A DNA stretch of 64,000 nucleotides from Demequina subtropica (GCF_000971235.1 NZ_BBMB01000009.1:1-64000), one strand, 5' to 3'. Numbered from the stretch's first letter, positions 5,140-56,854 are shown. Translations and numbers: made by a program. Notes: generated from the sequence alone by a model not told the origin.

Positions 5140-5231
5140 GGGGTAATGGAGCGAAAAATCCAATCGAGCGTCTGCCAGGCACGATGTGCGACGCGGGTGC
5201 GGCGCGCCAGACGCGTGGGAGCATCGTCTCC

Positions 5232-5582
5232 ATGGTGCAGATGACCCGCGAGGAGTTCGAGAAGGCCGTGGACGATGCGATCGACGCGGTCCCGGACGAG
5301 CTCCTGGACCTCGTCGACAACTGCGTGATCCTCATCGAGGACGAGCCCGAAGGGGACGACAAGGACCTCCTGGGCCTCTACGACGGCGTCGCGCTCACCG
5401 AGCGCGGCGACCTGTGGGGAGGCGAGCTGCCCGACCGCATCCTCATCTACATGAACCCCACGCTCCGCATGTGCGAGGACAAGGACGACGTGCGCGAGGA
5501 GGTGGCGATCACGGTGGTCCACGAGATCGCGCACCACTTCGGGATCGACGACGACCGCCTCCACGAGCTCGGCTGGGACTAA
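5232..5582 (+). CDS. Zincin-like metallopeptidase (PF06262 type)
   Basis: The 116-residue protein ends with HEIAHHFGIDDDRLHELGW, the hallmark of the small possible zinc-metallopeptidase family: H97 and H101 of HExxH plus a downstream acidic or His ligand near residue 106. No signal peptide is seen, so it should be cytosolic. I chose the ATG at 5232, with GGGAG 9 bases upstream; a second ATG at 5241 is possible. The substrate is unknown in this family. The gene is followed by a strong hairpin. Confidence 0.85.
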   Translation: MVQMTREEFEKAVDDAIDAVPDELLDLVDNCVILIEDEPEGDDKDLLGLYDGVALTERGDLWGGELPDRILIYMNPTLRMCEDKDDVREEVAITVVHEIAHHFGIDDDRLHELGWD

Positions 5583-5594
5583 CCCCCCGGACAC

Positions 5595-5639
5595 GACGAT
5601 GCCCGGGCCGCCCCCTGCCGAGGCGACCCGGGCATCGTC
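5595..5639. terminator. Terminator built from an inverted GACGATGC pair
   Basis: GACGATGCCCGGG at 5595-5607 pairs perfectly with CCCGGGCATCGTC at 5627-5639 around a 19-base loop. It lies between the convergent peptidase and permease genes and could serve both. The outer 8 bases are the iterated motif described in the findings. Confidence 0.7.
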
Positions 5640-5645
5640 CCGTTG

Positions 5646-7001
5646 CTAGTCCTCGTCGCCCTCGATGAAGGCGGGGCTCGCGACGGCGTGGGTGCCGGCG
5701 CGCCGGCTGATCCAGCCGAGCCCGTGGTAGATCACCAAGGCGGCGATCGCGCCGAGCGCGATGCCGTTGAAGATCATGTCGCCGGCCGTCGCGGTGAAGT
5801 CCGCGGTGCCGATGATGAGCGCGACGGCCGCCGTGACCAGGTTCACCGGGTTGGTGAAGTCGACCTTGGCCTCGACCCAGATGCGGGCACCCAGGACGGC
5901 GATGAGGCCGAACAGGAGCACCGAGAGCCCGCCGAGGATGCCCAGCGGGATGACGGCGACCATCGCGCCGAACTTGGGCACCAGGCTGAGCAGCAGCGCG
6001 ACCGCGGCCGCGGCCCAGTAGGCGAGGGTCGAGTAGACGCGGGTGGCGGCCATGACGCCGATGTTCTCCGCGTAGGTGGTGGTGCCGGAGCCGCCGCCGA
6101 GGCCGGCGACGATGGTCGCGGCGCCGTCCGCGAGCAGCGCGCGGCCGGTCTCGGGGTCGAGGTCGCGGTCGGTCATCGCGGACACCGACTTGAGGTGGCC
6201 GATGTTCTCCGCGATGAGGATGATCACCACGGGAACGAACGCGACCAGCACGCTGCCGTCGAAGCTGGGGGTGTGGAACTCGGGGATCCCGAACCAGTCG
6301 GCGGCGCCGATGTGGTCGAGCGCGGTCTGGTTGTCGAAGTCCTCGAGCGGCGTGGTCCACTCGCCGCGCAGCGCCGAGAAGACGCCGCCGATGACGGCGC
6401 CGAAGAGGATCGCGACGCGGCTGAGGAAGCCCTTGAACGCGACCATCGCGATGAGCGTCGCGGACAGCGTCACGAGCGCGGTCCACGGGCTCGCCGACCA
6501 CTGGCTCTTCGCGGCGCCCGCGAGGTTGAGACCGATGAGCGCGACCACGGCGCCGGTCACCACCGGCGGCATCGACCGGTCGATCCAGCCCGCGCCGAAG
6601 CGCGCGACCACCAGGCCGACGATCGCGAGCAGGATGCCGGCGAGCAGGATGCCGCCGAGGCCCTTCGAGATGGTGGCGGCGTCGAGCGGCGCGTTCGCGT
6701 TCGTCACGCCCGCGGCCGCGAGCGGGGCGATGAACGCGAAGCTCGAGCCGAGGTAGCTGGGCACGCGGTTGCGCGTGATCGTGAGGAACAGCGCGGTGCC
6801 GAAGGCGCTGAAGAACATCGTGGTCGATGCGGGCATGCCGGTGAGGGCGGGCACCAGCAGCGTGGACCCCATCATCGCGAGCACGTGCTGCGCTCCGATG
6901 CCGAAGGTGCGGGGGTACGTCAGTCGTTCGTCGGGGGCGACGGCCTTGCCGGGTGCGGCGTGCTTGCCGTCCCCGTGCAGCGTCCAGCTGAACATGCTCA
7001 T
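5646..7001 (-). CDS. NCS2-family uracil/xanthine permease
   Basis: The 451-residue protein is strongly hydrophobic with about 14 membrane segments and matches the nucleobase:cation symporter-2 family. The AENIGHL motif near the middle corresponds to the UraA substrate and proton-binding Glu region, and GLGGGSGTTTYAENIG corresponds to the second conserved half-helix. It should import uracil or a related base with a proton. The ATG at 7001 (MSMFSW) has AAGGAG close upstream; an ATG at 6995 has better spacing. A 190-bp gap separates it from galE. Confidence 0.85.
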   Translation of the reverse strand: MSMFSWTLHGDGKHAAPGKAVAPDERLTYPRTFGIGAQHVLAMMGSTLLVPALTGMPASTTMFFSAFGTALFLTITRNRVPSYLGSSFAFIAPLAAAGVTNANAPLDAATISKGLGGILLAGILLAIVGLVVARFGAGWIDRSMPPVVTGAVVALIGLNLAGAAKSQWSASPWTALVTLSATLIAMVAFKGFLSRVAILFGAVIGGVFSALRGEWTTPLEDFDNQTALDHIGAADWFGIPEFHTPSFDGSVLVAFVPVVIILIAENIGHLKSVSAMTDRDLDPETGRALLADGAATIVAGLGGGSGTTTYAENIGVMAATRVYSTLAYWAAAAVALLLSLVPKFGAMVAVIPLGILGGLSVLLFGLIAVLGARIWVEAKVDFTNPVNLVTAAVALIIGTADFTATAGDMIFNGIALGAIAALVIYHGLGWISRRAGTHAVASPAFIEGDED

Positions 7002-7129
7002 GGTTCTCCTTGATGCGGGGGGACTGCCGTGAAACCTAGTCTCTCCGCGCAGGCACGGGCGTGCACAACGATGCCTCCCCTCCCGACAGTGCCAACGGAA
7101 CCTGGGGCGACGCGCCGGCCGGAACCCGC

Positions 7130-7137
7130 GCATCGTC
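7130..7137 (-). repeat. Copy of the iterated GACGATGC motif
   Basis: In the 190-bp gap between the permease start and the galE end, the motif reads GGGACGATGCGCG on the minus strand. I see no other feature in this gap. Confidence 0.5.
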
Positions 7138-7191
7138 CCTTCTCGACGGCGTGTCGCGGCGAGATCCGTGGGGACTGTCCAGGGAGGGGGG

Positions 7192-9343: not shown

Positions 9344-10503
9344 AGTTCCTCCACGGGGTTGTCGTCGTCGGCACGGGCGATCGCGTCGCGCAGGGCGCGA
9401 GCGTGCTCCTCCTGAGGGATGTCCGCCACCCATGCTCCCATGGCGGCCTCGGAGCCTGCGAGGAACTTCATCTTGTCCTCGGCGCGGCGGGGGCTCGTGA
9501 TCTGCAGCATGAGCCGGACGCCGTCGGGTCGTTCCACCGGCGCCTGGTGCCACGCGGCGATGTACGGGGTCGGGGTGCTGTACCGGGCGTCGACGCCGCG
9601 CAGCAGGCGCAGGTAGAGGCCCGACAGCTCGGCGCGCTCGGCCAGCGAGGTCTCGGCCAGGTTCGCGACCGGACGATGCGGCATCACCTGGATCTCGAGC
9701 GGCCAGCGGGCGGCGAACGGCACGTAAGCGCTCCAGTGCTCGCCCGCGATCAGGAGGCGCGGCCCCCCGCGCTCGCGGTCGAGGACGTCCTCCATGAGCG
9801 TGGGGCCGTACGCCTCGATGGAGGCGAGCAGGCGCTGCGTGCGCGGGGTCACGTACGGGTACGCGTAGATCTGGCCGTGCGGGTGGTGGAGCGTGACGCC
9901 GATGGCCTCGCCGCGGTTCTCGAACGGGAAGACCTGGCGCACGGCGGGCACGCTCGAGAGCTCGGCGGTGCGGTGGGCCCACGCCTCGATCACGGTGCGC
10001 ATGCGCGAGCGCGACTGCGTCGCGAGCGAGCCGTCGTGCTCCGGGCTGAAGCACACCACCTCGCAGCGGCCCGCCGACGTGCCGATGCGCTCGAGGCCGA
10101 CGCCGTCGAGGCTCCCGTCGAGCTCCGCCGCGGGGCCGAACGAGGGCGACTTGTTCTCGAAGACCGCGACGTCGTAGCGGTCGGGGATCTCGGACGGGTT
10201 CCCGGGCGACTGCGGCGCGAGCGGGTCCAGGTGGGCGGGCGGCAGCATGACGCGGCCCTGACGCGCGGCGGCCACCGTGATCCACTCGCCGGTGAGCGGG
10301 TCCTGGCGCAGCTCGGCCGTCGCGGGCCTCGCGGCGAGCTCGCGCGCGTCACGGCGTCGCTCGGGCGCGAGGCCGGTGTCGGCGTCGTCGAAGTACAGCA
10401 GCTCGCGGCCGTCGGCGAGGCGGTCGCGCAGGACGCGCACCGCGTCGTCGCGCACGTGGATGGGGCGGTCGCCGACCTGGGAGGCGGTGGCGCTGAGGCT
10501 CAC
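9340..10503 (-). CDS. galT: Galactose-1-phosphate uridylyltransferase
   Basis: The 387-residue protein has the HPHGQ active-site motif, whose central His is uridylylated, near residue 208, and the N-terminal DPLTGEWI region. It exchanges UMP between UDP-glucose and galactose-1-phosphate. It is the first gene of the galTKE operon; two tandem operator-like repeats lie 34 bases upstream of its ATG. Confidence 0.93.
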
Positions 10504-12006: not shown

Positions 12007-12717
12007 ATGACCACGTTCACCCCCGAGCAGGAGGAGTCGATCCTCCGCAGCCGCGAGAAGGTGGCGAAGCTCCATGGCGAGCTCACGCGCTACAACCTGG
12101 TCGTGTGGACCGGCGGCAACGTCTCGGAGCGCGTGCCCGGCACGCAGCACTTCGTCATCAAGCCCTCCGGCGTCGACTACGACGACCTGGCGCCCGAGAA
12201 CATGATCCTGTGCGACCTCGACGGCAACGTGGTCCCCGGCTCGCTCGGCTCGGACCGCAGCCCCTCGTCGGACACCGCGGCGCACGCCTACGTGTACCGC
12301 GCGATGCCGAGCGTCGGCGGCGTGGTCCACACCCACTCGACCTACGCGACGGCGTGGGCGGCCCGCAACGAGCCCATCCCGTGCCACATCACCGGCATGG
12401 CGGACGAGTTCGGCGGCGAGATCCCCGTCGGCCCGTTCGCGATCATCGGCGACGACTCGATCGGCCGTGGCATCGTCGCGACGCTCGAGGGCCACCGCTC
12501 GCGCGCCGTCCTCATGGCCAACCACGGCGTCTTCACCATCGGCAAGGACGCGCGCGACGCCGTCAAGGCCGCCGTCATGTGCGAGGACGTCGCCAAGACC
12601 ACCCACATCGCCCGCCAGGGCGGTGCGCTCGTCGACATCCCCGAGGGGAAGATCGACGCGCTCTTCGACCGCTACCAGAACGTCTACGGACAGAAGCCGC
12701 AGGGAGGCATGCAGTGA
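12007..12717 (+). CDS. araD: L-ribulose-5-phosphate 4-epimerase
   Basis: The 236-residue class II aldolase-fold enzyme has the zinc-binding HTHS motif near residue 98 and conserved GGNVSER and KPSG motifs. It converts L-ribulose-5-phosphate to D-xylulose-5-phosphate. AAGGAG lies 8 bases before the ATG. It is unusual in leading the operon before araA and no araB kinase is nearby. Confidence 0.92.
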
Positions 12718-14339: not shown

Positions 14340-14347
14340 GACGATGC
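14340..14347 (+). repeat. Copy of the iterated GACGATGC motif
   Basis: GGGACGATGC lies between the araA terminator and the CebR-like box. It is the only copy between 10 and 19 kb. Confidence 0.5.
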
Positions 14348-18723: not shown

Positions 18724-19737
18724 GTGACGAAGCTGCGGGGTCGCCGGCCCACCATCGACGATGTGGCACGGGAGGCCGGGGTGTCGCGCGGCACGGTGTC
18801 CCGGGTCCTGAACGGCGGTCATTGGGTCTCGGACGGGGCGCGGGTCCAGGTCGAGAAGGCCATCAAGTCGACCGGCTACCGCATCAACCCGCACGCCCGA
18901 TCGCTCGCGACGAGCCGCACAGGCTCGGTCGGGTTCCTTCTCACGGAGTCCTACGAGCGGTTCTTCTCGGACCCGAACTTCCTCCAGATCTTGCGTTCCT
19001 CCGCCGACGCGCTCGCCGGGCACGGCATGACGCTCGTGCTGATCATGGCGGACACCCTCGACGAGCGGCACCGTGCCACCGAGTACCTCACCGGCGGTCA
19101 CGTCGACGGCGCGCTCGTGGTGTCCTCGCACCGTGACAGCCAGGAGTTCCTGGCCGAGCTGCTCGCCGCGCGGCTGCCCGTGATCTCCGCGGGCATCCCG
19201 CTGGGCTTCGAGGAGCAGGTGGGCTACGTGACGGCGGACGATGAGGGCGGCGCCCGGGCGATCATCGAGCACCTGGGCGCGCATGGCCGGACGCGCATCG
19301 TCCACCTCGCTGGACCGCAGGACACGTCCGGCGGCACGGGCCGCCTGCAGGCGTTCCGCACGGTGCTGGGCGCGGCGTACTCCGACGAGCTGGTGGCGTA
19401 CGGCGACTACAGCCGCGACTCGGGCGCGAACGCGATGCGCGAGATCCTCGCGCGCGAGGTCCCCTTCGACGCGGTCTTCGCGGCGAACGACCTCATGGCG
19501 GCCGGCGCGATGGACGTGCTGGCGAAGGCGGGCCTGAAGGTGCCGGAGGACGTCGCGGTGGTCGGCTTCGACGACTCCCCGGTGGCGCAGCAGACCACGC
19601 CCCAGCTCACCACGATGCGCCAGCCCTTCGACCGCGTGAGCGAGGAGATGATCCGGCTGCTGGTCGACGAGATCAACGGGCGACCGGCCGGCCGCGTGGT
19701 GATCCCGACCGAGCTGGTGGAGCGCGGCACCGTCTGA
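18724..19737 (+). CDS. LacI-family regulator, probable repressor of the sugar ABC operon
   Basis: The 337-residue protein has a LacI helix-turn-helix at residues 10-35 (IDDVAREAGVSRGTVSRVLN) and a sugar-sensing core ending with GFDDSPVAQ and TTMRQPF. It follows the sugar ABC operon, and similar palindromes precede both, so it is the best candidate regulator of that operon and itself. The start is GTG with AGAGG upstream. The inducer is unknown. Confidence 0.82.
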   Translation: MTKLRGRRPTIDDVAREAGVSRGTVSRVLNGGHWVSDGARVQVEKAIKSTGYRINPHARSLATSRTGSVGFLLTESYERFFSDPNFLQILRSSADALAGHGMTLVLIMADTLDERHRATEYLTGGHVDGALVVSSHRDSQEFLAELLAARLPVISAGIPLGFEEQVGYVTADDEGGARAIIEHLGAHGRTRIVHLAGPQDTSGGTGRLQAFRTVLGAAYSDELVAYGDYSRDSGANAMREILAREVPFDAVFAANDLMAAGAMDVLAKAGLKVPEDVAVVGFDDSPVAQQTTPQLTTMRQPFDRVSEEMIRLLVDEINGRPAGRVVIPTELVERGTV

Positions 19738-19748: not shown

Positions 19749-20750
19749 TCAGCGCGGCGGCGCCGCCGAGGCGCGCACCACGAGCTCGCAGGGGATGAGC
19801 TCGATCCCTGCGGGAACGGAGTCCCCGGCGATGAGCGCGAGCACCTGCTCGACCAGCCGGCGTCCCACCGCCGCGAACGGCTGACGCACGGTCGTGAGCG
19901 GCGGGTTGAGGAAGCCCGCCAGCGAGATGTCGTCGAAGCCCACCACCGACAGGTCGCCGGGGATCCGCACGCCGGCCTCGGCGCACGCGAGCATGAGGCC
20001 GGTCGCCATCTCGTCGTTCGCGCAGAACACGGCTGTCGCCTCGCCCGAGTCCACGAGCGCGCGGCCGGCGGCGAGGCCCGAGGCGGCGGTCCAGTCGCCC
20101 CGCCACGGCTCGGGGACGCGCGCGCCGCGCTCCCTCAGCACGTCCTCCCAGGCGCCGAGCCGCGCGCGCGCCGGGATCGAGTCCTCGGGGCCGGCGAGGT
20201 GGTGCACGGTTCGGTGCCCCAGATCGAGCAGGTGCTCGACCGCCTGGCGCGCGCCCCCGGCGTGGTCGGACCCGACCATCGGCAGCCGCCCGCCGAAGGT
20301 CGCATCGGCCACCACCACGGGAAGCCCCGCCGGCAGGGCCAGGCGCCCGGCGTCCTCGATCTCGGCACGGATGATGATGAGCCCGTCGATCGCCTGATGC
20401 GACAGCCGCGAGGCCGCCTCCGCGACCTCGGCGTGCTCGGTCGAGTCGATGTCGAGCAGCGTGACGGTGTGGCCCGAGCCGCGCGCTGCCTGGACCACCG
20501 CCTCGACGATGCTCGACTCGCCGGTGCGCGCGAGCCGGTGCGCGATGACGCCGAGCGTCTCGAAGCTTCCGCTGCGCAGGGCCCGTGCCGCGGTGTTGGG
20601 GGTGTAGCCCACCGACTCCATCGCCTCGAGGACGCGCTGACGGGTGTCCGGGCTGACGTTGAGGGAGCCGTTCGCCACACGGGAGACGGTCTGTCCGGAG
20701 ACCCCGGCGAGGCGGGCGACGTCCGTCATGGAGGCGCGGGCCGGGCTCAT
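19749..20750 (-). CDS. LacI-family regulator, third copy
   Basis: The 333-residue protein has the HTH MTDVARLAGVSGQTVSRVAN at residues 8-27 and the full sensor domain. It is convergent with the previous LacI gene (12-bp gap) and lies 9 bases after the SDR gene, probably in one transcript with it. Its targets are not visible here; a local palindrome at 21566 is a hairpin rather than a clear LacI box. Confidence 0.82.
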   Translation of the reverse strand: MSPARASMTDVARLAGVSGQTVSRVANGSLNVSPDTRQRVLEAMESVGYTPNTAARALRSGSFETLGVIAHRLARTGESSIVEAVVQAARGSGHTVTLLDIDSTEHAEVAEAASRLSHQAIDGLIIIRAEIEDAGRLALPAGLPVVVADATFGGRLPMVGSDHAGGARQAVEHLLDLGHRTVHHLAGPEDSIPARARLGAWEDVLRERGARVPEPWRGDWTAASGLAAGRALVDSGEATAVFCANDEMATGLMLACAEAGVRIPGDLSVVGFDDISLAGFLNPPLTTVRQPFAAVGRRLVEQVLALIAGDSVPAGIELIPCELVVRASAAPPR

Positions 20751-20759
20751 GAGGGAACC

Positions 20760-21524
20760 CTAGTGGAGGTGCTCGCCCGTGGCGGCGACCAGGTGCTCGA
20801 CCAGCTCGACGCGCAGGCCGGCATCGAGCGCCGCGGGCGGGGGCGCCTCGGCGCGGCGCTTGTGGACGTACTGGCCGCCGCGGCGCGCGACAGGCTCATC
20901 CGAGGTCGCGAGCCACACGGGCGTGTCCGCGCCGTCCGAGACGGGCAGGGCCGCACGGGGACCGCCCATGCGGGTGCGGACCCAGCCGGGGTGGACCACG
21001 TTGATCTGCCGGTCGGTGTGCCGGGCCGCGAGCTCGAACGCCAGCATGGTGAGCAGCAGCTTCGAGTCGGCGTACGCCTGGTGGCTCTCCCAGTCGTCGG
21101 GGGTGGAGAGGTCGACGCGGGGGCGTCCCGCGAAGGCAGCATCGGAGCCGATGAGGACGATACGGCGGGGGACCGTGAGCAGGGCGCTCAGCAGGTAGGG
21201 CGCGACCAGGTTGACCTGGAGGATCCGCTCGATTCCGTCCTCCGTCGGGATGGGCCGCTCCTGCTCGGGGCCGAGCGCCGCGTTGTGGACGATCACGTCG
21301 TACGGGCCCCGGCCGCGCGCATCGTCCGCGAGAAGGCGTGTCGAGGAGAGGGAGTCGAGCCTCCCGGTCACGCCCGCGAGGGCGTCGGGGACGGCGGCGA
21401 GCGCCACCTCGGTGCGCGCGGCGTCGCGGCCGTGCACCACCACGTCGTAGCCGAGCGCGACCAGCCGGCGTGAGATCTCGGAGCCCAGGCCCTGGGCGGC
21501 TCCGGTGACGAGGGCGCGCGGCAT
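20760..21524 (-). CDS. Short-chain dehydrogenase/reductase
   Basis: The 254-residue Rossmann protein has the cofactor motif TGAAQGLG at residues 7-14, NNA-like HNAALG, a Ser region and the catalytic YxxxK in YADSK. The substrate cannot be deduced. I chose the ATG at 21524 because upstream codons give no domain; no clear ribosome site is present. It appears co-transcribed with the LacI gene that follows. Confidence 0.82.
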   Translation of the reverse strand: MPRALVTGAAQGLGSEISRRLVALGYDVVVHGRDAARTEVALAAVPDALAGVTGRLDSLSSTRLLADDARGRGPYDVIVHNAALGPEQERPIPTEDGIERILQVNLVAPYLLSALLTVPRRIVLIGSDAAFAGRPRVDLSTPDDWESHQAYADSKLLLTMLAFELAARHTDRQINVVHPGWVRTRMGGPRAALPVSDGADTPVWLATSDEPVARRGGQYVHKRRAEAPPPAALDAGLRVELVEHLVAATGEHLH

Positions 21525-23025: not shown

Positions 23026-23286
23026 GTGTGGTGGAGCTTCCTGCAGGCGGTCAGGCGCGGCGAGCATCGTCTGGCGCCCATGACCTGGGTCGTGGCCGCC
23101 GGGGCCGTGCTCTACACGCTCTGGCCGCTCGACCTCATCGCGGACCTGCTGCTCCCGCTCGGGATCGTCGACGACCTCGGGCTGTGGGTGGTCGCGTTCA
23201 CGCTCCTCAACCGGGAGCGGCGGCGATTCGAGGAGTCGCGGCACGGTGCCGTGGTGGACGTCGAGGGGACGGTCCGGCGCTCCTGA
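23026..23286 (+). CDS. DUF1232 (YkvA-like) membrane protein
   Basis: The 86-residue protein shows one or two membrane segments around the family motif PLDLIADLLLPLGIVDD. The family's function is unknown. The GTG start fits a leaderless promoter. It is followed 15 bases later by a separate leaderless gene. Confidence 0.8.
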   Translation: MWWSFLQAVRRGEHRLAPMTWVVAAGAVLYTLWPLDLIADLLLPLGIVDDLGLWVVAFTLLNRERRRFEESRHGAVVDVEGTVRRS

Positions 23287-24021: not shown

Positions 24022-24503
24022 CCACGACGCACCTTCCCCAGCGGCCCTACGTGGGCGTGCCTCTGGAGGTCACGCTCGAGGAGCTCCCCCGGGTGGTGGG
24101 GGAGGCCTTCGACCGTGTCGCGACGATGCTCGCGGCGCACGGCGCGGCACCGCGCGGCGCCGTGATCAGGTACATCGCGTTCCGGCCGGGCGACGTGGTG
24201 GACATCGAGGTCGGGCATCTGGTGGATCCGGCCGAGCTCGAGGGTGCGCCCATCGAGGCGGACGTGCTCCCGGCAGGCGAGTACTCGGTGGTGCACCACG
24301 AGGGCCCGTACGCGGAGCTCGGGGAGGTGACGGCGCGGCTCATGGACACGTGGCCCGACGCGGGGCTCGTGCCCGCGATGGCGCATACGACCACGGGCGA
24401 CGACTACGCCTCGTGGTACGAGCTCTACCTCGACATGCCCCGACCCGGCCCGAGGGGGCCGGAGGGCGCGGTGGAGGTCTGCGTGCTCGTGCTCCCGGCG
24501 TGA
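24018..24503 (+). CDS. GyrI-like small-molecule-binding protein
   Basis: The 161-residue protein matches the AraC effector-binding/GyrI-like fold: an N-terminal strand with RPYVGVPLEV, a central IRYIAF, and the C-terminal ending WYELYLDMP and VCVLVLPA. Such proteins bind or detoxify small cationic ligands. The overlap with the flavodoxin-like gene suggests a joint stress or detoxification role, but this is inference. Confidence 0.72.
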   Translation: MTTTHLPQRPYVGVPLEVTLEELPRVVGEAFDRVATMLAAHGAAPRGAVIRYIAFRPGDVVDIEVGHLVDPAELEGAPIEADVLPAGEYSVVHHEGPYAELGEVTARLMDTWPDAGLVPAMAHTTTGDDYASWYELYLDMPRPGPRGPEGAVEVCVLVLPA

Positions 24504-24530: not shown

Positions 24531-24797
24531 TCAGGCGGCGAGCGCGAGCTCGCTGAGGATCAGGCGACGCATGTCGCCCTCCTCGTCGGCCTCCCGGTAG
24601 GCGAGCATGCCGCCGGGGGTCGTGCATCGTCCATCGCCGTGGTCCGCGACCTGCGCGCCCACCCGGAGCAGCTCGGGCTGGCGGATGCGCCACACGAGCA
24701 TGGAGTCGCCGTCCGACATCAGCGCCCAGGTGCTCCCGACCTCCATGACCGTGCGCAGCAGCGGTCGGGTGCCGTGGACCAGGGGCGTGATGTTCAT
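24531..24797 (-). CDS. Conserved-looking small protein of unknown function
   Basis: The 88-residue product has no signal peptide or clear motif; it contains WALMSDGDSMLVWRI, which suggests a small beta fold. Its ATG overlaps the stop of the upstream membrane protein as ATGA, which supports both genes being real. I do not recognise the family. Confidence 0.6.
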   Translation of the reverse strand: MNITPLVHGTRPLLRTVMEVGSTWALMSDGDSMLVWRIRQPELLRVGAQVADHGDGRCTTPGGMLAYREADEEGDMRRLILSELALAA

Positions 24798-25285
24798 GTG
24801 GGCGACTCTACGCCCGCGGCGGGACGCTGGATGACCGCGCGGATGGCGGCGACGAGCGCGCCCGGGTCGTCCGCCGCGACAGCGACCGCCTCACGGTCCA
24901 GCGCCGTCGCCGTCGGGGCATCGAGCCTGAGGAGCACGTTCGCCTCGCCCGCGTAGAGGGTGCGTCCGGCGCCGCGGGGGAGGTTGTCGCTCGACGGCAC
25001 GGTGCGAGCCTCGACGATGCCCGCGACCGGCACCACCACGGGGCGCCGGAGGCCTCGGTGCACGGTCAGCGTCCCGTCCTCGAGCCGCAGCGGGCGGCGC
25101 ACCGCCGCGACCCAGTCGACGAGCACGTACCCGATGAACAGGACCGATGCGACGGTGACGACGAGCGCGACGGTCGCGTTCCAGCGCGCGAGCAGCAGGT
25201 GCGCGACGGGGATCTCGACCGCCGACACGGCCGTCACGGCGAGCACGAGCTGGCGTGGCAGCCCGAGCGCATAGGAGAACTCCAT
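24794..25285 (-). CDS. Small membrane protein with a cytoplasmic tail
   Basis: The 163-residue product has two or three membrane helices in the first 70 residues, then a soluble part with RLEDGTLTVHRG resembling PH-like domains of small actinobacterial membrane proteins. It is translationally coupled to the following 88-residue protein. The function is unknown. Confidence 0.65.
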   Translation of the reverse strand: MEFSYALGLPRQLVLAVTAVSAVEIPVAHLLLARWNATVALVVTVASVLFIGYVLVDWVAAVRRPLRLEDGTLTVHRGLRRPVVVPVAGIVEARTVPSSDNLPRGAGRTLYAGEANVLLRLDAPTATALDREAVAVAADDPGALVAAIRAVIQRPAAGVESPT

Positions 25286-33667: not shown

Positions 33668-33673
33668 CGATGC
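33666..33673 (+). repeat. Copy of the iterated GACGATGC motif
   Basis: The motif overlaps the stop codon of the RibD-like gene (TGACGATGC). Confidence 0.45.
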
Positions 33674-34226: not shown

Positions 34227-34234
34227 GACGATGC
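34227..34234 (+). repeat. Copy of the iterated GACGATGC motif
   Basis: AGGACGATGCGCGCC lies upstream of the sigma factor gene. Confidence 0.5.
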
Positions 34235-39199: not shown

Positions 39200-39241
39200 G
39201 ACGATGCGGTGGCCGGGAGCCGCCGGTGGTGGCGCATCGTC
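39200..39241. repeat. Inverted pair of GACGATGCG motifs
   Basis: GACGATGCG (39200-39208) and CGCATCGTC (39233-39241) are perfect inverted copies 24 bases apart in the divergent gap before the SnoaL-like gene. They could form a hairpin or a paired protein site. Confidence 0.6.
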
Positions 39242-40310: not shown

Positions 40311-41222
40311 CTACGCGGCGAGCACGCCCAGCTCGGAGAAACCCCTCCAGGCCATCATGACGTTCAGCGGACGATCCAGCACGGCCCAGGACGCGCACTT
40401 GGCGACCGCGATGCCGCGCATGCGCGCCTCGAGCCCCGGGTCGTCGCACCCGGTCGCGTCGAGGTAGGCCGCCACCGCATCGTCCACACCCGCGGCGGGC
40501 ATCGCCGTGTAGAGGAAGGACAGGTCGACGGCGCGCTCGCAGCCGGCCATCTTGCCCCAGTCGATGATCCCCGCGAAGGCGCCGTCGACGCCCAGCAGGT
40601 TCGAGCCGTGCGGGTCCGCGTGCGACCACACGACGTCGCGCGGCGCCGGGGCGTCGAGGGCCTCGTCCCACACATCGCCCACGGCGCCCAGATCGAGCCG
40701 CTCACCGCCGGGACCCTCCGCGCTCGCGAGCCGCCGCAGCGCCCACTCGAGGTTCTCGGCGCGCTCGCACAGGGTGATCGACTGCTCCGGGTTGAACCAC
40801 GCGTCCGGGCCCGCGGGGGAATGCACCTGCGCGAAGGCCCGCCCGAGCGCCGCGCCGGACGATGCGTCGAGCGGCGTCGCATCGGCCGCCCGCCCGGGCA
40901 GCCACGAGACCAGGGCCCACGGCCACGGGTACCCGTCCTGTCCCACGCCGCTCTCGACGATGCGCGGGTGCGGGAAGTCCCACGTGGCCCCCACGGTGCC
41001 GAGCAGGTGGGTCTCGCGCGCGAGCGACCCGACCGCCTGCTCGACGCGCGGCAGGCGCAGGCTCAGGTCCTCGCCCAGCCGGTAGACCACCATGTCCCAG
41101 CCGTCGAAGCGCTCGCCGATCTCGAGATGCGCGAGCCCCGGCAGCTGCCGGTCCACGAGCGCGCGCGCGAGCCCGGGCGAGATGGCGGGGTGCGCGGGCG
41201 GCGGTCCCGAGTCGCGGATCAT
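40311..41222 (-). CDS. Aminoglycoside phosphotransferase-fold kinase
   Basis: The 303-residue protein has the APH kinase motifs: catalytic SHADPHGSNLL (HxDxxxxN) near residue 200 and IIDWGKM (Asp for Mg) near residue 220. It may phosphorylate an aminoglycoside, macrolide or another small molecule; resistance cannot be inferred from sequence alone. The ATG at 41222 is 6 bases after a TAGCGT box. Confidence 0.85.
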   Translation of the reverse strand: MIRDSGPPPAHPAISPGLARALVDRQLPGLAHLEIGERFDGWDMVVYRLGEDLSLRLPRVEQAVGSLARETHLLGTVGATWDFPHPRIVESGVGQDGYPWPWALVSWLPGRAADATPLDASSGAALGRAFAQVHSPAGPDAWFNPEQSITLCERAENLEWALRRLASAEGPGGERLDLGAVGDVWDEALDAPAPRDVVWSHADPHGSNLLGVDGAFAGIIDWGKMAGCERAVDLSFLYTAMPAAGVDDAVAAYLDATGCDDPGLEARMRGIAVAKCASWAVLDRPLNVMMAWRGFSELGVLAA

Positions 41223-43122: not shown

Positions 43123-43901
43123 GACGCCCCCTGCTCGTCCTCGAGGGCGGGCCGGGCCGCGGGCTCCGCCGCCGCATCGTCCGTGCGCGCGCGGCGGGGG
43201 ACCATCGCGCCCGCCGTGATCCCGGCGAGCGCCCCGCCGAGCACGTTGAGCCCGTAGGGCAGGTCGCGACCCAGCAGCACGACCGCCACGGAGACGGCGA
43301 CGGCCACCAGCGCGGGGGAGTCCCGCAGGCCGGGCACCAGCACCGCGAGGAACATGAGCGGCACGATGAACCCGATCTGCCACGAGTCCGGGATGACGGG
43401 GCCGAGCGCGATCCCTGCGGCGGTGCCCATCGCCCACACGGCCACGAACGGGCCCGAGGCGCCCCAGATGAACCACCGGCGGCGCACCGGGTCGGGCCAG
43501 CGCTCGGCGTGCTGGAGCGACACCACCGCGGACTGGTCCGTCATCACGTGCGCGAGGCCCAGCCGCCACCGGCGCGGGAACGCGGAGAACACCGGCGCGA
43601 GGGCCGCGGAGTAGAGGGCGAGCCGGGCGTTGATCACCAGCGCCGTCAGCACAGCGATCGCGGCCGGGGCGCCCGCGCGCAGCTGCTCGACCATCGCGAT
43701 CTGGCTCGCGCCGGCCACCACCGTGACCGAGGCGTAGTTGCCCACCCAGGCGTTGATCCCCGCGACCCGCACGAGCGCCCCGAACGCGAGACCGAACAGC
43801 ACCGCGCCCGGCATCAGCGGCGCGACGGCGCGGATGCCCGCCCACGTGTCGGCCCACTGCTGGGGGCCGATGCGCAGGAAGGTCCGCTCGCGAGTGCTCA
43901 C
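43119..43901 (-). CDS. azlC: AzlC-type branched-chain amino acid exporter subunit
   Basis: The 260-residue membrane protein matches AzlC: APLMPGAVLFGLAFGAL near the start, and NARLALYSAAL and VMTDQSAVV in the middle. The start is GTG at 43901 with CACACT 7 bases upstream and no ribosome site. It is the first gene of azlCD. Confidence 0.87.
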   Translation of the reverse strand: MSTRERTFLRIGPQQWADTWAGIRAVAPLMPGAVLFGLAFGALVRVAGINAWVGNYASVTVVAGASQIAMVEQLRAGAPAAIAVLTALVINARLALYSAALAPVFSAFPRRWRLGLAHVMTDQSAVVSLQHAERWPDPVRRRWFIWGASGPFVAVWAMGTAAGIALGPVIPDSWQIGFIVPLMFLAVLVPGLRDSPALVAVAVSVAVVLLGRDLPYGLNVLGGALAGITAGAMVPRRARTDDAAAEPAARPALEDEQGAS

Positions 43902-43992: not shown

Positions 43993-44000
43993 GACGATGC
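43993..44000 (+). repeat. Copy of the iterated GACGATGC motif
   Basis: GTGGACGATGCGCGG lies just after the end of the DUF1540 gene. Confidence 0.5.
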
Positions 44001-46092: not shown

Positions 46093-47067
46093 TCAGACGT
46101 GCACGCGCAGCAGGTGCGTCTCGACCGCCACCACCACGGGCCCGGACTCCCAGTCCGCGACGTGCGCGACCAGCACGCCGCCGGCGGGCAGGTAGGGGTT
46201 CGAGCGCGGCAGCGCGCCGCGCGTGTACGGCCGCACGGCCGCGCGGAGCATCTCGATGATGGTCGGCAGCGTGGGCCGGTGGACGCAGACGACCCGCGGT
46301 GAGCGCTTGCGCAGGAGCTTGCCGAACACGGTCGCCGTCTCGAGCGGACGATGCGCGTGGCGGGGCTCGGTGAGGGCCTCGTGGACGTGGATGTCCGAGC
46401 CGATCGCGTCGGCGTACGGCGTCACGGTGTCGACGCAGCGGCGCGCGGGCGACGACTCGATCTTCGAGATCCCGAACGATGCGATGAGCGGCACCAGCGC
46501 CTGCGCGCGCTCCTTGCCGGACTTGCTGAGCGGCCGCTTCGCGTCGGCGAGCTTCCATGCCTTGCGCCGCTTGGCGCGCGCGTGCCTCACCAGCATGAAG
46601 GGCCTGGTGTCGAGCCGTCCTGCGGCGTAGGCGTCGACCAGCGCGTCGAGCGGTCGGAGATCGTCGGGGAACGTGATGAGGGCGTGCGCCTGCTCGACGG
46701 TGAGCCAGCGCATCTGGTCGATCTCGTTCTTGGACGCGTCCTTGAACCTCGGGCGCGCGCGGACCGCGGCGGCGCCGGAGGACATGAGCTCGGCGGCCCA
46801 GTACTTCACCACCTTCTGCTTGCCGGCCGCGATCGGGTAGCGCAGCGTTGGAAGCGGCTGGCCCAGCACCACCTGCTTGCCCGTCTCCTCGGCCACCTCG
46901 CGGACCGCGCACTCGGGCAGCGACTCGCCGGGATCGAGCTTCCCCTTGGGCCACGACCAGTCGTTGTAGCGAGGCCGGTGCACCGCGAGCACCTGCAGCT
47001 CGCCGTCCCGGATGCGCCACACGAGCGCACCGGCGGCCACGACGGTGCCCTCGGGGTAGTGGTTCAC
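46093..47067 (-). CDS. MutT1-like Nudix hydrolase fused to a histidine phosphatase
   Basis: The 324-residue protein has a Nudix box at residues 42-64 (GKLDPGES ... REVAEETG) and a second domain from about residue 155 that starts LVRHARA, a histidine-phosphatase active site. This matches mycobacterial MutT1, which degrades 8-oxo-GTP/dGTP and diadenosine polyphosphates. The GTG at 47067 overlaps the ppk stop as GTGA, so the two are coupled, as in mycobacteria and relatives. Confidence 0.9.
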
Positions 47068-49319
47068 TTCCCCTTGGCCCTCCGCTTGGGCTGCCGGCGG
47101 ATGTACGTGCCCTGGAGGTCCTTGAGCCGGTTGCCCTCGCCGTCGGTGACGGTGTGGCTCCACGTGCCGTCCTCGTGCAGCTCCCAGCCCGCAACCTGCC
47201 TGCTCATCGCCATGTCGATGTTCTCGATGAGGCTCGCCACCTGCAGCTCGTCCGTCACGGTGATGAGCGCCTCGATGCGGCGGTCGAGGTTGCGGTGCAT
47301 GAGGTCGGCCGAGCCGATGAACACCTCGGGGTCGCCGTCGTTCGCGAAGGCGTAGATGCGCGAGTGCTCGAGGAACCGGCCCAGGATCGAGCGGACCCGG
47401 ATGTTCTCGGAGAAGCCGGGCACCCCGGGTCGCACCGCGCAGATGCCGCGCACGTTGACGTCGACCTTCACGCCCGCGTTCGAGGCGCGGTAGAGGGCGT
47501 CGATCGTCTTCTCGTCGACGATCGAGTTGACCTTGATCTTGACCCACGCCTCCTTGCCCTCGGCGGCGTTCCTGGCCTCGCGCTCGATGCGCTCGATGAG
47601 GCCGGCGCGCACGCCGATCGGGGCGACGATGAGCCGGCGGAAGCGCGACTTGGGCGCGTAGCCCGAGAGCTGGTTGAAGAGCTTGGTGAGGTCCGCCCCC
47701 ACCTCGGGGTTCTTGGTGAGCAGGCCGTAGTCCTCGTAGAGGCGTGCCGTCTTCGGGTGGTAGTTGCCGGTGCCGATGTGGCTGTAGCGCTGGAGGCCGT
47801 CCTCCTCCTGGCGCACCACGAGCGACAGCTTGCAGTGCGTCTTGAGCCCGACCAGGCCGTAGACCACGTGCACCCCGGCCTGCTCGAGCTTGCGCGCCCA
47901 CGAGATGTTGCGCCGCTCGTCGAAGCGCGCCTTGATCTCGACCAGCGCGAGCACCTGCTTGCCCGCGTGCGCTGCCTCGATGAGCGCGTCGACGATGGGC
48001 GAGTCGCCCGAGGTGCGGTACAGCGTCTGCTTGATCGCGAGCACCTTCGGATCAGCGGCCGCCTGCGCGAGGAAGGCCTGCACCGACGTCGAGAAGGAGT
48101 CGTAGGGGTGGTGCAGCAGCACGTCCCCGCGCGTGATCGCGTCGAAGACGTTCTGCTCGTCGGCGGTCTCGACGGGGGCCAACCGGTGGTGCGTGGTGGG
48201 CCGGAAGGACTCGAACTGGAGCGAGGGCCGGTCGAGGTCCGCGATGAGGTTGAGGCCCGTGAGGTCGAGCGGCGCGGGCAGGTGGAACACGTCGTTCTCG
48301 GTGATGCCGAGCTCGCGCACCAGCAGCTCGCGGATCTTGGGCGGGAGGTCGTCGGCCACCTCGAGGCGGACCGCGGGGCCGAAGCGCCGGCGCAGCAGCT
48401 CCTTCTCCATGGCCTTGAGGAGGTTCTCGGCATCGTCCTCCTCGACCTCGACGTCCTCGTTGCGGGTGACGCGGAACGTGTAGTGCGCCGCGACCTTCAT
48501 GCCGGGGAACAGGTAGTCGAGGTGTGCCCCGATGACGTCCTCGAGCGGGACGAAGCTGCGCGGCTCGTCGGACAGCGACGCCGCGTCGGTCACCTGGCCC
48601 ACGTGGCCCGCGGCGTCGACCGAGAGGAACCGCGGCAGCGTCTCGGGCACCTTGACGCGCGCGAAGTAGTCCTTGCCGGTCTCGGGGTCGACGATCTCGA
48701 CGGCGATGTTGAGCGACAGCCCCGAGATGTACGGGAAGGGGTGCGCGGGGTCGACCGCGAGCGGCGTGAGCACGGGGAAGATGTCGGCGCGGAACAGCTT
48801 GCGCAGGCGCTCGCGCTCGGCGTCGCCGAGGTCCTCCTGCCGCACCAGCTGGATGCCCTCGTTCGCGAGCGCGGGGCGCACCTGGTCCTCGAACGTCTCG
48901 GCGTGGCGGTCCATGAGCTCGTGCGCGCGCTCGATGATCGCGTCGATCTGGCGGCTCGCGCTCATGCCCGTGGCGGACGGCACCGCGAAGCCGGCGGCGA
49001 TGCGGCGCTTGAGCCCGGCGACCCGCACCATGAAGAACTCGTCGAGGTTGGAGGCGAAGATCGCGAGGAAGCGCGCGCGCTCGAGCAGGGGCGTCTGCGG
49101 GTCCTCGGCCATCTCGAGCACGCGCTCGTTGAAGGCGAGCCACGACAGCTCGCGGTCCAGGTAGCGCTCGTCCGGCAGCGCGGACGGCGACTCGTCCTCC
49201 TCGAACTCGACGGTGGGGACGGGGTACGTCTCCTCGGAGTCGAGCGCAGGCGCGTCGGCCAGCGGCGCGGGAGCGGGCGTGGAGGCGTTGACGTCGAGGC
49301 TCTCGGACATGTGGCCCAT
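47064..49319 (-). CDS. ppk1: Polyphosphate kinase 1
   Basis: The 751-residue protein has the N-domain [16 protein letters not shown], the head domain, and the catalytic C-domains with [20 protein letters not shown] and [20 protein letters not shown]. It makes polyphosphate from ATP through a phospho-His. Two ATGs (49319 and 49310) are close; neither has a strong ribosome site. The first 40 residues are a variable acidic extension. Confidence 0.93.
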
Positions 49320-49440: not shown

Positions 49441-49904
49441 TGCCGATGGACGATGCGCAGCACGCGTACGTGGACAGGGTCGCGACCTTCTTCACGATGT
49501 TCGGCTCCGCGCGCGCGTGGGCCGAGATCCTCGGGTGGCTCATGATCTGCGAACCCGCCGAGCAGACCCAGGCCCAGATCGCCGAGGACCTCGGGCTGAG
49601 CGCCGGCACGGTCTCGACGCAGCTGCGCGCGCATGTGCAGCTCGGGATGGTCGAGCAGGTGCGGGTGCGTGGCGACCGCACGCAGCGCTACCGGCTCCGT
49701 TCGGGGGCCTGGTACGCGGTCATGGCCTCCGAGCTCGAGCGCATCCGCGCCCTCGGCGACCTCGCGCGCGCCGGCGACGGCGTGCTTCCCCGGGACAGAC
49801 CCGAACGGGTCACGGAGCTCGGCGACCTCGCCGACTTCTTCGCACGCGAATGGCCGCCGCTCATGGAGCGCATGACGGCAGAGCTCGAGAAGGGACCAGC
49901 ATGA
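49440..49904 (+). CDS. GbsR/MarR-type transcription regulator
   Basis: The 154-residue winged-helix protein has its recognition helix in IAEDLGLSAGTVSTQLRAH (residues about 45-63) and a C-terminal helical dimer region. It overlaps the ABC ATPase start as ATGA and probably represses this exporter operon through the palindrome at its own start. Confidence 0.82.
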   Translation: MPMDDAQHAYVDRVATFFTMFGSARAWAEILGWLMICEPAEQTQAQIAEDLGLSAGTVSTQLRAHVQLGMVEQVRVRGDRTQRYRLRSGAWYAVMASELERIRALGDLARAGDGVLPRDRPERVTELGDLADFFAREWPPLMERMTAELEKGPA

Positions 49905-50857
49905 CCACCACCCCCGCCATCGAGACCGTGGGTCTCACCAAGCGCTTCGGCGACTTCACCGCGGTGCAGGACGTGTCCCTGCAGATCGGCCCCGGGGAGA
50001 TCTTCGGCTTCCTCGGGCCCAACGGTGCGGGCAAGTCGACGACCATCCGATGCCTGCTCGACCTCATCCGGCCCTCGGAGGGCGAGTGCCGCATCGTCGG
50101 GCTCGACTCGCGCAAGGACGCCGTCGAGATCCGCCGCCACCTGGGCTTCCTGCCCTCCGACCTCGCGCTCTACCCGAACCTCACGGGGCGCGAGACGCTC
50201 GAGTTCCTCGCGAACCTGCGCGGAGGCGTCGACTGGACGTGGGTCGATGCGCTGGCCGACCGCCTCGACGCCGACCTGGGCAAGAAGGTGGGCGAGCTCT
50301 CGTCCGGCAACCGCCAGAAGGTCGGGCTCATCCAGGCCTTCATGAACCGCCCCGAGGTGGTGATCCTCGACGAGCCGATCACGGGCCTCGACCCGCTGGT
50401 GCAGCTCGAGTTCCACACGCTCATGCGCGAGCAGGTGGCAGAGGGGCGCACGGTCTTCCTCTCCAGCCACACGCTGTCCGAGGTCGAGCGGGTCGCCGAC
50501 CGCGTCGGCTTCATCCGCCGCGGGCACCTCATCGCGGTCGAGCGCATGGACGAGCTCAAGGACAAGGCGCTGCGCCGCGTGACGCTCGAGTTCGCGCACC
50601 CGGTCGCGGTCGACGCGTTCGACGGCGTCGAGGGCGTGCACAGCGTGAGCGCCGAGGGCGACACGGTGACCGCGCAGTACGAGGGCTCGATGGCCCCGTT
50701 GCTCAAGGTCGCCACCGCTCATGACGTGCTCTCGCTGTCGTCCGCGAGCGTCGACCTCGACGAGATCTTCCTCGAGTTCTACCGCGACGAGGTCAGCGAG
50801 GCCGAGGGTGACGCCGAGGACGTGCCCGCCGCCGCGGCCGCCGGGGAGCGTGCGTGA
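49901..50857 (+). CDS. ABC exporter ATPase
   Basis: The 318-residue protein has Walker A GPNGAGKST (near residue 43), signature LSSGNRQKV and Walker B VVILDEP, and a C-terminal domain of about 90 residues like DrrA-type ATPases. It pairs with the permease that follows. The substrate is unknown. Confidence 0.9.
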   Translation: MTTTPAIETVGLTKRFGDFTAVQDVSLQIGPGEIFGFLGPNGAGKSTTIRCLLDLIRPSEGECRIVGLDSRKDAVEIRRHLGFLPSDLALYPNLTGRETLEFLANLRGGVDWTWVDALADRLDADLGKKVGELSSGNRQKVGLIQAFMNRPEVVILDEPITGLDPLVQLEFHTLMREQVAEGRTVFLSSHTLSEVERVADRVGFIRRGHLIAVERMDELKDKALRRVTLEFAHPVAVDAFDGVEGVHSVSAEGDTVTAQYEGSMAPLLKVATAHDVLSLSSASVDLDEIFLEFYRDEVSEAEGDAEDVPAAAAAGERA

Positions 50858-52647: not shown

Positions 52648-53106
52648 TCAGAGCTCCCGGGTGTAGAAGCGCGAGAACGGGTCGAGGGCGTAGCCGGCGA
52701 ACGGCCCGCACTCGGTGAAGCCTGCGCGCTCGTACAGACGATGCGCGGCGTGGAAGGGCTCGGACGTCCCCGTCTCGAGGCTCACGCGGACGAGCCTCAG
52801 GTCGCGACCCACGCCCATGAGGTGGTCGAGCACCGCGGTCGCGACGCCGCGGCCGCGCTGATCGCCGGCGGTCCGCATCGACTTGATCTCGCCGTGCACC
52901 GGCTCGATCACCGCGATCGCGCCCACCCCGAGCAAGGCGCCGTCCCCGTCGCGCGCCGCGACGAACCTCACGTGCGGCGCGCGCAGCCGGTCGACGTCGA
53001 GCGCGTGCACCGAGCAGGCGGGCGAGGTCGCGTGCATGTCGGCGAGGTGCTCCGTCAGGAGCGCGGTGATGTCCGGGCTGCCGGGGTCGGCGAGGGCGAT
53101 CTGCAT
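52648..53106 (-). CDS. GNAT-family N-acetyltransferase
   Basis: The 152-residue protein has the GNAT acetyl-CoA loop in RTAGDQRGRGVATAVLDHLM and the later LETGTSEPFHAAHRLYERAGF. It transfers an acetyl group to an unknown amine. GAGG lies in the short leader. Confidence 0.87.
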   Translation of the reverse strand: MQIALADPGSPDITALLTEHLADMHATSPACSVHALDVDRLRAPHVRFVAARDGDGALLGVGAIAVIEPVHGEIKSMRTAGDQRGRGVATAVLDHLMGVGRDLRLVRVSLETGTSEPFHAAHRLYERAGFTECGPFAGYALDPFSRFYTREL

Positions 53107-55075: not shown

Positions 55076-55078
55076 GCC

Positions 55079-55936
55079 ATGGCCGAACTGCTCATCCGCG
55101 CGACGGACGTCACGCGTCGCTTCGGGGACTTCACCGCCGTCGACCAGGTATCGCTCACGGTCGAGCCCGGAGAGATCGTCGGCCTGCTCGGCGCGAACGG
55201 CGCCGGCAAGACCACGCTGATCCGCATGATCCTGGGCCTGCTGCCGCCCACCGACGGCCGGCTCGAGCTCATGGGGCGGGCCCCCGATCGCGAGGGTCGC
55301 GCGCGCCTCGGCTACGTGCCGCAGGGGCTGGGGCTGTGGGACGACCTCACGGTCGAGGAGAACCTCGCATTCGTCGACGAGGCGTTCGGCTCGCGCGCGA
55401 CTGCGGTGCCGGAGGCCCTCGCGACCTCGCGCGAGAGCCTCGTCGGGGGCATCGGCCTCGGGCGTCAGCGCCAGCTCGCCTTCGCCGCGGCGCTGGGCCA
55501 CGGGCCCGAGCTGCTCGTGCTCGACGAGCCCACGTCGGGCGTGGACCCGCTGTCCCGCGCACGGCTGTGGGACACCATCCACGAGAGCGCCGACGCCGGC
55601 GCGGGCGTGCTCGTCACCACGCACTACATGCAGGAGGCCGAGCAGTGCGACAGGCTCGTGCTGATGTCGCAGGGGGTCGCGGTGGCGTCCGGGCAGCTCG
55701 CGGACATCGTCGGCGGCACCACTGCGCTCGCGGTGCGCACCGAGCGGTGGCAGGACGCCTTCGCCGCGCTCGACGATGCGGGGGTCCTGGTCATGCTCTC
55801 GGGCACCCATGTGCGCGCGGTCGACGCCTCGGCGGAGCGTGTGCGCGCTGCGCTCGGAGGCCTCGAGGCCGAGCTCGAGGCGGTGCCCGCGACGCTCGAG
55901 GAGGCGATGGTCGCGCGCGAGCGCGCGGCGGCCTGA
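55079..55936 (+). CDS. ABC exporter ATPase, matches the C-half of YbhF
   Basis: The 285-residue protein has Walker A GANGAGKTT and Walker B LLVLDEPTSGVDP, but its signature is GIGLGRQRQLAFAAAL rather than LSGGQ. This atypical form is usual for the second cassette of YbhF-like ATPases. A C-terminal domain of about 60 residues follows. Three bases separate it from the previous ATPase. Confidence 0.85.
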   Translation: MAELLIRATDVTRRFGDFTAVDQVSLTVEPGEIVGLLGANGAGKTTLIRMILGLLPPTDGRLELMGRAPDREGRARLGYVPQGLGLWDDLTVEENLAFVDEAFGSRATAVPEALATSRESLVGGIGLGRQRQLAFAAALGHGPELLVLDEPTSGVDPLSRARLWDTIHESADAGAGVLVTTHYMQEAEQCDRLVLMSQGVAVASGQLADIVGGTTALAVRTERWQDAFAALDDAGVLVMLSGTHVRAVDASAERVRAALGGLEAELEAVPATLEEAMVARERAAA

Positions 55937-55938
55937 GC

Positions 55939-55946
55939 GCATCGTC
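55939..55946 (-). repeat. Copy of the iterated GACGATGC motif
   Basis: GGGGACGATGCGC on the minus strand lies just after the exporter operon. Confidence 0.5.
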
Positions 55947-56010
55947 CCCGGTCCGAAGGCGCATGCGCGCGCGGCGGCGCGTGCGTCCCGGGCCGGCCCC
56001 GCGCGATGCC

Positions 56011-56016
56011 TAGGGT
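56011..56016 (+). promoter_or_regulatory. Leaderless -10 box for the PAP2 gene
   Basis: TAGGGT lies 7 bases before the ATG at 56024. Confidence 0.45.
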
Positions 56017-56023
56017 GGGCCGC

Positions 56024-56830
56024 ATGACTCGACGCATGCGTGCCTCCGACGCGGTGCTCGCGCTGTGGCCCGCGGCGGTGCTCACGGCCGCGGGCGTGGC
56101 GGGATTCGTCGGGCTCCTCGACTGGGTGCGCGAGAACGAGGAACTTGCGCGCGTCGACCAGCCGCTGCTCGAGCTCCTCGCGGACCAACGCTCGCCCGGG
56201 CTCGAGACCTTCTTCTCCGTGGTGTCGTTCGTGGGCGGGCCCGCGGTGCTGCCCGTGGTGGTCGCGCTGATCGCGCTGGTGTGGTGGCGCGTGTCGCGCT
56301 CGTGGTGGGAGCCCGTGCTGCTGGTGGTCGCGATGGTGATGTCCACGGCGCTCACGGTGGTGCTCAAGGCCGTGGTCGGGAGGGACAGGCCGGCGGACGT
56401 CCTCATGGTGGTGCCGGGGGGCGAGTCCTCCGGCTCGTTCCCCTCGGGCCACACGGTCGGCGCGACGACGCTGGTCCTGGTGGTGGGCTACCTGCTCTGG
56501 CATGAGGATGCCGAGGCGTCGTGGGCGCTCACGGGCTGGGTGCTCGCGTCCGCGGCCATCATCGCCGCGGTCGGTGCGGCCCGCCTGTACCTCGGCTACC
56601 ACTTCCTCACGGACGTCATCGCCGGCCTGTGCGTCGCGCTCGCGGTGCTCGGCGTGGTCGTGGGCGCGGAGCGCTGGCACGATCTCTGGCTCGAGCGGCG
56701 CGACCCGCCCGCGCGGCCTCGCGCGCTCGCCGCGGCCGACGAGGACCTCGTATGGATGCGCGACGCGGGCGATGACGGCGACGCGGAGGCGGCGGAGGCC
56801 GAGCGAGGCGTCGAGGGCGACGGCCGCTGA
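56024..56830 (+). CDS. PAP2-family membrane phosphatase
   Basis: The 268-residue protein has six membrane helices and the three PAP2 motifs: KAVVGRDRP (residues 115-123), PSGH (140-143) and R187-H193-D197 (ARLYLGYHFLTDV). It dephosphorylates a lipid phosphate on the outer face, possibly undecaprenyl pyrophosphate or phosphatidate. The 50-residue C-terminal tail is acidic and Ala-rich. Confidence 0.9.
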   Translation: MTRRMRASDAVLALWPAAVLTAAGVAGFVGLLDWVRENEELARVDQPLLELLADQRSPGLETFFSVVSFVGGPAVLPVVVALIALVWWRVSRSWWEPVLLVVAMVMSTALTVVLKAVVGRDRPADVLMVVPGGESSGSFPSGHTVGATTLVLVVGYLLWHEDAEASWALTGWVLASAAIIAAVGAARLYLGYHFLTDVIAGLCVALAVLGVVVGAERWHDLWLERRDPPARPRALAAADEDLVWMRDAGDDGDAEAAEAERGVEGDGR

Positions 56831-56846
56831 GCGGAGCGGTCCCGGC

Positions 56847-56854
56847 GACGATGC
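56847..56854 (+). repeat. Copy of the iterated GACGATGC motif
   Basis: GGCGACGATGCCGCG lies shortly after the PAP2 stop; it is the last copy in the window. Confidence 0.5.

Follow-up and report, generated by a model that had tools for sequence, protein, structure and literature searches.

The short motif GACGATGC, repeated many times in a stretch of 64,000 nt from the genome of Demequina subtropica (NZ_BBMB01000009.1:1-64000; in the following, the window), probably represents an independent DNA uptake sequence of the genus Demequina. This interpretation is favoured because the abundance of the motif, its strand symmetry, its non-coding excess, its genic copies, the inverted pairs at gene ends and the existence of dialects around a fixed core correspond to the feature set of the known DNA uptake sequences (DUS) and uptake signal sequences (USS). 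It also appears likely, with slightly less certainty, that a sequence-specific uptake system comprising five or more dialects evolved here on its own, which would make Demequina the third lineage with uptake sequences and the first Gram-positive one, and that the specificity of the receptor changed several times within the genus, which would explain the secondary load of a sister dialect in species such as D. subtropica.

In the window, GACGATGC is present in 42 copies (24 on the plus and 18 on the minus strand). Dinucleotide shuffles contained 7.0 +/- 3.0 copies, with 42 reached in not one of 100 shuffles, and a third-order Markov model predicts 9.2. The original prediction had listed 36 copies; all are real, one start had to be moved from 31781 to 31780, and six copies had been missed (marked in Table 1), among them the one at 62004, hence the assumption that none occur after 56.9 kb was wrong. 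The predicted chance number of about 2 holds as a zero-order figure, but is exceeded by both expectations given above. The further Markov, shuffle and placement statistics refer to 464 kb of D. subtropica, with genes called by our own simple gene finder. The third-order Markov comparison, which had been set beforehand as a check, left the enrichment standing: 391 copies of GACGATGC were found vs 68.7 expected, 173 vs 6.8 for the 10-mer GGACGATGCG, and 39 vs 0.3 for the extended form GGGACGATGCGCG. The GGACGATGCG family is the top over-represented word at each k from 7 to 13. Throughout the whole genome the non-palindromic 10-mer occurs 1079 times (552 plus, 527 minus) and its reversed control 3 times, while the extended form, an extension having been noticed before among the intergenic copies, has 101 copies and its reversed control 0. 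According to single-substitution counts, the core at positions 4-9 of the 10-mer (CGATGC) is strict, with substituted versions at or near background, and positions 1, 2 and 10 are permissive, with substituted versions mostly 3-7x over-represented. At position 3, the A to C version is 4.3-fold over-represented, C being the letter of another dialect. Words of the types GCGATCGC/CGCGATCGCG and ATCGCGAT are mildly over-represented as well (2-5 fold in the window and in the sample of the same genome).

The motif accumulates both between and inside genes. Between genes 86 copies face a Markov expectation of 3.3 (~26-fold), and the intergenic share amounts to 92 of 391 copies in 9.2% of the sequence, with 76% of the copies in genes. 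The intergenic enrichment described by the original prediction was thus found again, although its figures for the window (about 15 copies in about 10% of the DNA) change to 14 of 42 copies in ~13%. Inside coding sequences (CDS), 297 copies compare with 85 +/- 8 in synonymous-codon shuffles (~3.5-fold; 100 shuffles, maximum 106), hence the excess also withstands the check on codon pairs. The motif dictates codon choice in genes: the Asp codon GAT makes up 11% of all Asp codons in D. subtropica and 13% of those after a GAC Asp without a following Ala, but 66% in GAC-Asp-Ala, in agreement with the earlier remark that the motif forces this rare codon. Chance, codon-pair or mutational bias might be considered in view of the high G+C content favouring CG-rich words; this explanation is refuted by the Markov and synonymous-shuffle controls, the near-zero counts of the reversed patterns and the dialect-specific codon choice described below, and its probability is negligible.

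Inverted pairs of the motif capable of forming hairpins are a small minority of the copies in D. subtropica, where most copies are single. In a set of 77 such pairs from other Demequina species, taken from loci pre-selected for carrying inverted pairs, 68 were situated outside predicted CDS, with a gene 3' end at a median distance of 15 bp; in these other species, inverted pairs were found in 22 of 63 convergent vs 10 of 78 divergent spacers. The occurrence of such pairs near gene ends would suit a mobile intergenic repeat (repetitive extragenic palindrome, REP, or miniature inverted-repeat transposable element, MITE) or a terminator stem. However, such an origin is contradicted for most copies by the predominance of single copies and of genic locations and is highly improbable, and the motif does not form a conserved intergenic element of 20 or more nt. 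Moreover, the flanks of different copies are unrelated past ~13 nt, hence the copies are not fragments of a mobile repeat.

The density of a non-palindromic 8-mer would also be suitable for a polar chromosome signal, i.e. an FtsK-orienting polar sequence (KOPS), a Chi site or an architecture-imparting sequence. Both KOPS and Chi have a pronounced orientation with respect to the replichores. Strand use of the motif is even in 20-kb stretches (chi2 of 16.6 over 21 stretches in D. subtropica, and alike in five other genomes), which at this scale rules out a polarity of the KOPS or Chi type and contradicts the proposed role as a chromosome-orienting site; a polar signal is accordingly a very remote explanation. 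A strand alternation of adjacent copies (41% on the same strand in D. subtropica, P=0.002; 40-41% including genomes of the dialect B introduced below) was dropped after independent loci had given 47% and 50%.

Dialects and distribution of the motif

The motif is confined to the genus Demequina. GGGACGATGCG stays at background (at most 18 copies) in 274 genomes of the order's other genera, compared to 315-884 copies in the sampled species of dialect A, and samples of two sister-genus genomes contained no word. When 84,980 genomes were scanned for the hairpin form, most of the matches listed belonged to Demequina, and other genera appeared only sporadically. Whole-genome counts of GGACGATGCG are bimodal across the genus, and most of the low genomes have their own word. 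The dialect words share CGAYGC (GGCCGATGCG/T/C, GGCCGACGCT and GCCCGACGCT) and reach hundreds to thousands of copies in other species. The three main words, counted genome-wide, define largely exclusive classes, namely GGACGATGCG (dialect A, for example in D. soli and D. silvatica), GGCCGATGC (dialect B; ~400-2000 copies in ~20 species, with the 3' variants G, T(G) or C(G)) and GCCCGACGCT (908 copies in genome G009, 254 in G011); the dialects of several species were derived from 20-120 kb samples. GGCCGACGCT is the word of genome G003 and GGGACGATGCCCG that of D. sediminis. GGCCGATGCT, GGCCGACGCT and GCCCGACGCT are one step apart each and look like a path of change. The word GGATGCCGA was rejected as a dialect of the species G027 and G001, because its counts are flat across the genus. 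D. subtropica itself displays a secondary excess of the sister dialect B, with 487 copies of GGCCGATGC in the whole genome and 23 copies of GCCGATGC in the window, which might be a relic of an earlier dialect or reflect tolerance of the receptor.

The codon choice follows the dialect. In GAC-Asp-Ala, GAT is used in 66% of cases in D. subtropica, 55% in other A species and 21-33% in B genomes, whereas in GCC-Asp-Ala it is used in 81-84% in B genomes (G036: 50% of 16 cases), 16% in other A species and 49% in D. subtropica. Genomes of dialects C and D, word-less genomes and those of the sister genus showed no such effect. The protein sequence does not account for this switch of codon choice with the dialect at the same residues, whereas a force on the DNA word would do so. 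A rewriting of homologous sites between dialects was also considered; a single alaS column is in line with it, having the A word in 12 A genomes and the B word in 6 B genomes, and is of low weight, and the idea was rejected because other columns do not fit.

These observations bear on two intracellular explanations. The motif could be the site of a nucleoid-associated or chromosome-organising protein, with dialects arising by co-evolution of the protein with about a thousand sites, or a word of unknown use similar to the highly iterated palindrome HIP1. HIP1 of cyanobacteria is a highly iterated octamer found across the lineage, the palindrome GCGATCGC, whose function is unknown and for which no uptake is known. 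The genome-wide abundance, the strict core and the excess between genes are in line with this possibility, and the Demequina motif resembles HIP1 as a lineage-wide, highly iterated word. However, GGACGATGCG is not palindromic and has species dialects, which together with the inverted pairs at gene ends weakens the HIP1-like role named in the original prediction. Furthermore, rewriting a thousand sites in several related species demands strong selection on each site, which biased gene transfer does not, and neither the inverted pairs nor the absence of the word in two species would be predicted. We therefore regard this explanation as unlikely, though not as far-fetched. A methyltransferase or restriction site that protects or flags DNA is much less probable. 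Methylases typically recognize short motifs and change in specificity, but methylation provides no drive for a 25-fold accumulation of sites, and restriction selects against them; the methylase or nucleoid-protein site proposed earlier leaves both the genic build-up via rare codons and the dialects unexplained. Of the four roles originally proposed, the uptake sequence is the one that our data support.

Uptake machinery and receptor candidates

Genes for DNA import are nearly universal in the genus: ComEC and the adjoining ComEA were each found in 43 of 44 Demequina genomes, and all 44 have a pilB homologue. D. subtropica possesses a full type IV pilus operon in one cluster, composed of pilB, pilT, pilC, pilA, pilD, pilM, a pilX-like gene and the genes of two minor pilins; the less conserved of these were named by position and N-terminal motif. 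We infer that Demequina is transformable and that its uptake prefers the motif. Double-stranded DNA with the word of the species (core CGATGC or, in some species, CGACGC) would be bound by a receptor on the cell surface, for which a type IV pilus pilin is the most probable choice. Retraction of the pilus through PilT and import by ComEA and ComEC would follow, and the DNA would replace the resident allele by recombination. Word-bearing alleles would then arrive more often than word-less ones, and copies would build up where they are tolerated, i.e. in intergenic DNA, as inverted pairs able to double as terminators, and in genic codon contexts able to hold the word. A drift of receptor specificity would slowly rewrite whole genomes and thereby give rise to dialects.

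With regard to the receptor, the minor pilins of the operon were set aside because they do not vary along with the dialect. Another candidate, and no more than that, is an orphan type IV pilin (~137 aa; invariant W-C...C tail), whose gene is flanked by metE and an acetyltransferase gene in the four species examined and which has relatives outside the pilus cluster in most Demequina genomes. Its structural model is confident and pilin-like (predicted local distance difference test score, pLDDT, of 89), and its sequence matches type IV pilins in the PDB, chiefly along the N-terminal helix; a fold search yielded no significant match. In D. subtropica and two close relatives, the W-C...C tail is found only on the PilA of the cluster (D. 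subtropica L221:13339-13797).

Several observations weigh against an uptake function. Transformation of Demequina is not on record in the open literature searched. Samples of the species G001 and G027 lack any word despite the presence of the machinery, hence the machinery alone does not predict the word. The minor pilins are highly variable between species without following the dialect (loci L222-L260), and no orphan pilin was found in D. subtropica, although the motif is strong there. In a tree of rpsD, alaS and mltG, three genes from one locus, the dialects match the phylogeny only broadly: dialect A forms one clade plus two species beside word-less ones, B is found elsewhere, and C occurs in two distant branches. 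Finally, the spacing of copies is random (variance/mean ~1) and does not support the even spacing reported for known uptake sequences. Our confidence goes no further than probable in view of four of these points: the record on transformation, the tentative receptor candidates, the two word-less species with the machinery, and the random spacing. As a separate observation, the word-less G027 has a run of more than 10 C or G at a pilus or comEC locus (L246 or L207), possibly a phase-variable tract.

If the uptake reading is true, sequence-specific uptake has evolved outside the Proteobacteria and without an outer membrane. Several dialects and word-less species in one genus would then offer a natural experiment on the origin, switching and loss of uptake specificity, which also bears on gene exchange and codon use, and the reading is directly testable with culturable type strains.

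Copies in the window and the integrated element

All copies in the window are compiled in Table 1. An integrated element with lower G+C content occupies positions 1-5220 and adjoins genes for tRNA-Phe/Asp/Glu (4748-5093, minus strand). As stated in the original prediction, it contains no copy of the motif; about 3.7 would be expected (P ~0.02), a difference that is only weakly significant by itself.

Table 1. Positions of motif copies and of genes of the integrated element in the window
Feature	Position	Strand	Context
rve-type transposase	1487-2410	-	integrated element
phage integrase	3909-4670	+	integrated element
motif copy GACGATGC	5221..5228	-	inside CDS 5184-5582
motif copy, GGACGATGCG form	5271..5278	+	in CDS; missed earlier
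inverted motif pair (5595 +, 5632 -), terminator-like hairpin	5595..5639	.	convergent genes, 3' ends 12 and 6 bp away
motif copy, full extension GGGACGATGCGCG	7130..7137	-	intergenic
10-mer copy	9672..9679	+	in CDS
motif copy	12470..12477	-	in CDS; missed earlier
motif copy	14340..14347	+	doubtful open reading frame of 49 codons; possibly intergenic
10-mer copy	19295..19302	-	in CDS
motif copy	20505..20512	+	in CDS
10-mer copy	21319..21326	-	in CDS
motif copy	23064..23071	-	intergenic
motif copy	24122..24129	+	in CDS
motif copy	24624..24631	-	in CDS
motif copy	25013..25020	+	in CDS
motif copy	29695..29702	+	intergenic
motif copy, full extension GGGACGATGCGCG	31780..31787	+	inside CDS 31333-32142
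motif copy, full extension	32158..32165	-	intergenic; convergent genes, ends 15 and 4 bp away
10-mer copy	33049..33056	+	intergenic
motif copy	33256..33263	+	in CDS; missed earlier
motif copy	33666..33673	+	overlaps stop codon
10-mer copy	34227..34234	+	intergenic
motif copy	34769..34776	-	in CDS; missed earlier
motif copy	34920..34927	+	in CDS
10-mer copy	36669..36676	+	in CDS
10-mer copy	38410..38417	-	in CDS
inverted motif pair (39200 +, 39234 -), hairpin	39200..39241	.	intergenic
10-mer copy	40477..40484	-	in CDS
10-mer copy	40858..40865	+	in CDS
motif copy	40956..40963	+	in CDS
10-mer copy	43174..43181	-	in CDS
10-mer copy	43993..44000	+	intergenic
10-mer copy	46347..46354	+	in CDS
motif copy	48430..48437	-	in CDS
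10-mer copy	49449..49456	+	start of CDS 49446-49904
motif copy	50091..50098	-	in CDS; missed earlier
motif copy	52737..52744	+	in CDS
motif copy	55772..55779	+	in CDS
10-mer copy	55939..55946	-	intergenic, 2 bp past gene end
motif copy	56847..56854	+	intergenic, 16 bp past gene end
motif copy	62004..62011	-	in CDS; missed earlier

Comparison with known systems

Our search, which covered the open literature, revealed no report of an uptake sequence for Demequina or any other actinobacterium, and a search with the bare 8-mer retrieved unrelated papers only. The Neisseriaceae and Pasteurellaceae are the only families known to use uptake sequences (PMC12616744, 2025). Among actinobacteria, Micrococcus luteus is competent and has comEA/comEC together with a type IV filament, a Flp/Tad pilus, according to the passages of a competence review consulted here (PMC6370729), which make no mention of an uptake sequence. 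Demequina, also an actinobacterium, shares comEA/comEC and the possession of a type IV filament, but this filament is encoded by a type IV pilus operon (pilB, pilT, pilC, pilD and pilM), different from the Flp/Tad pilus described there.

Known uptake sequences have many genic copies, a non-coding excess, about 10% of copies arranged as inverted repeats and no orientation bias (PMC1939737). The USS of the Pasteurellaceae have a 9-nt core and exist in two types, and share with the Demequina motif the many genic copies, the excess in non-coding DNA and the lack of orientation bias (PMC12616744, PMC1939737); unlike them, the Demequina motif has an unrelated sequence without AT-rich flanking segments, and its spacing is random instead of even. 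The Neisseriaceae DUS, whose dialects share an inner core, are similar in being words of 10-12 nt with hundreds to thousands of copies on both strands, in dialects that keep a fixed core and vary in one to a few bases around it, in the inverted pairs at gene ends and in the presence of a type IV pilus (PMC3630211). However, the Demequina core CGAYGC is not CTG- or GCCGTCTGAA-like, hence the motif falls outside the neisserial sequence family, and it belongs to a Gram-positive lineage, the Actinomycetota, in which the uptake role is deduced from sequence. Five characters of the DUS/USS class are nevertheless found in Demequina, namely abundance, strand symmetry, non-coding enrichment with inverted pairs, dialects sharing a core, and genes for a pilus and DNA translocation.

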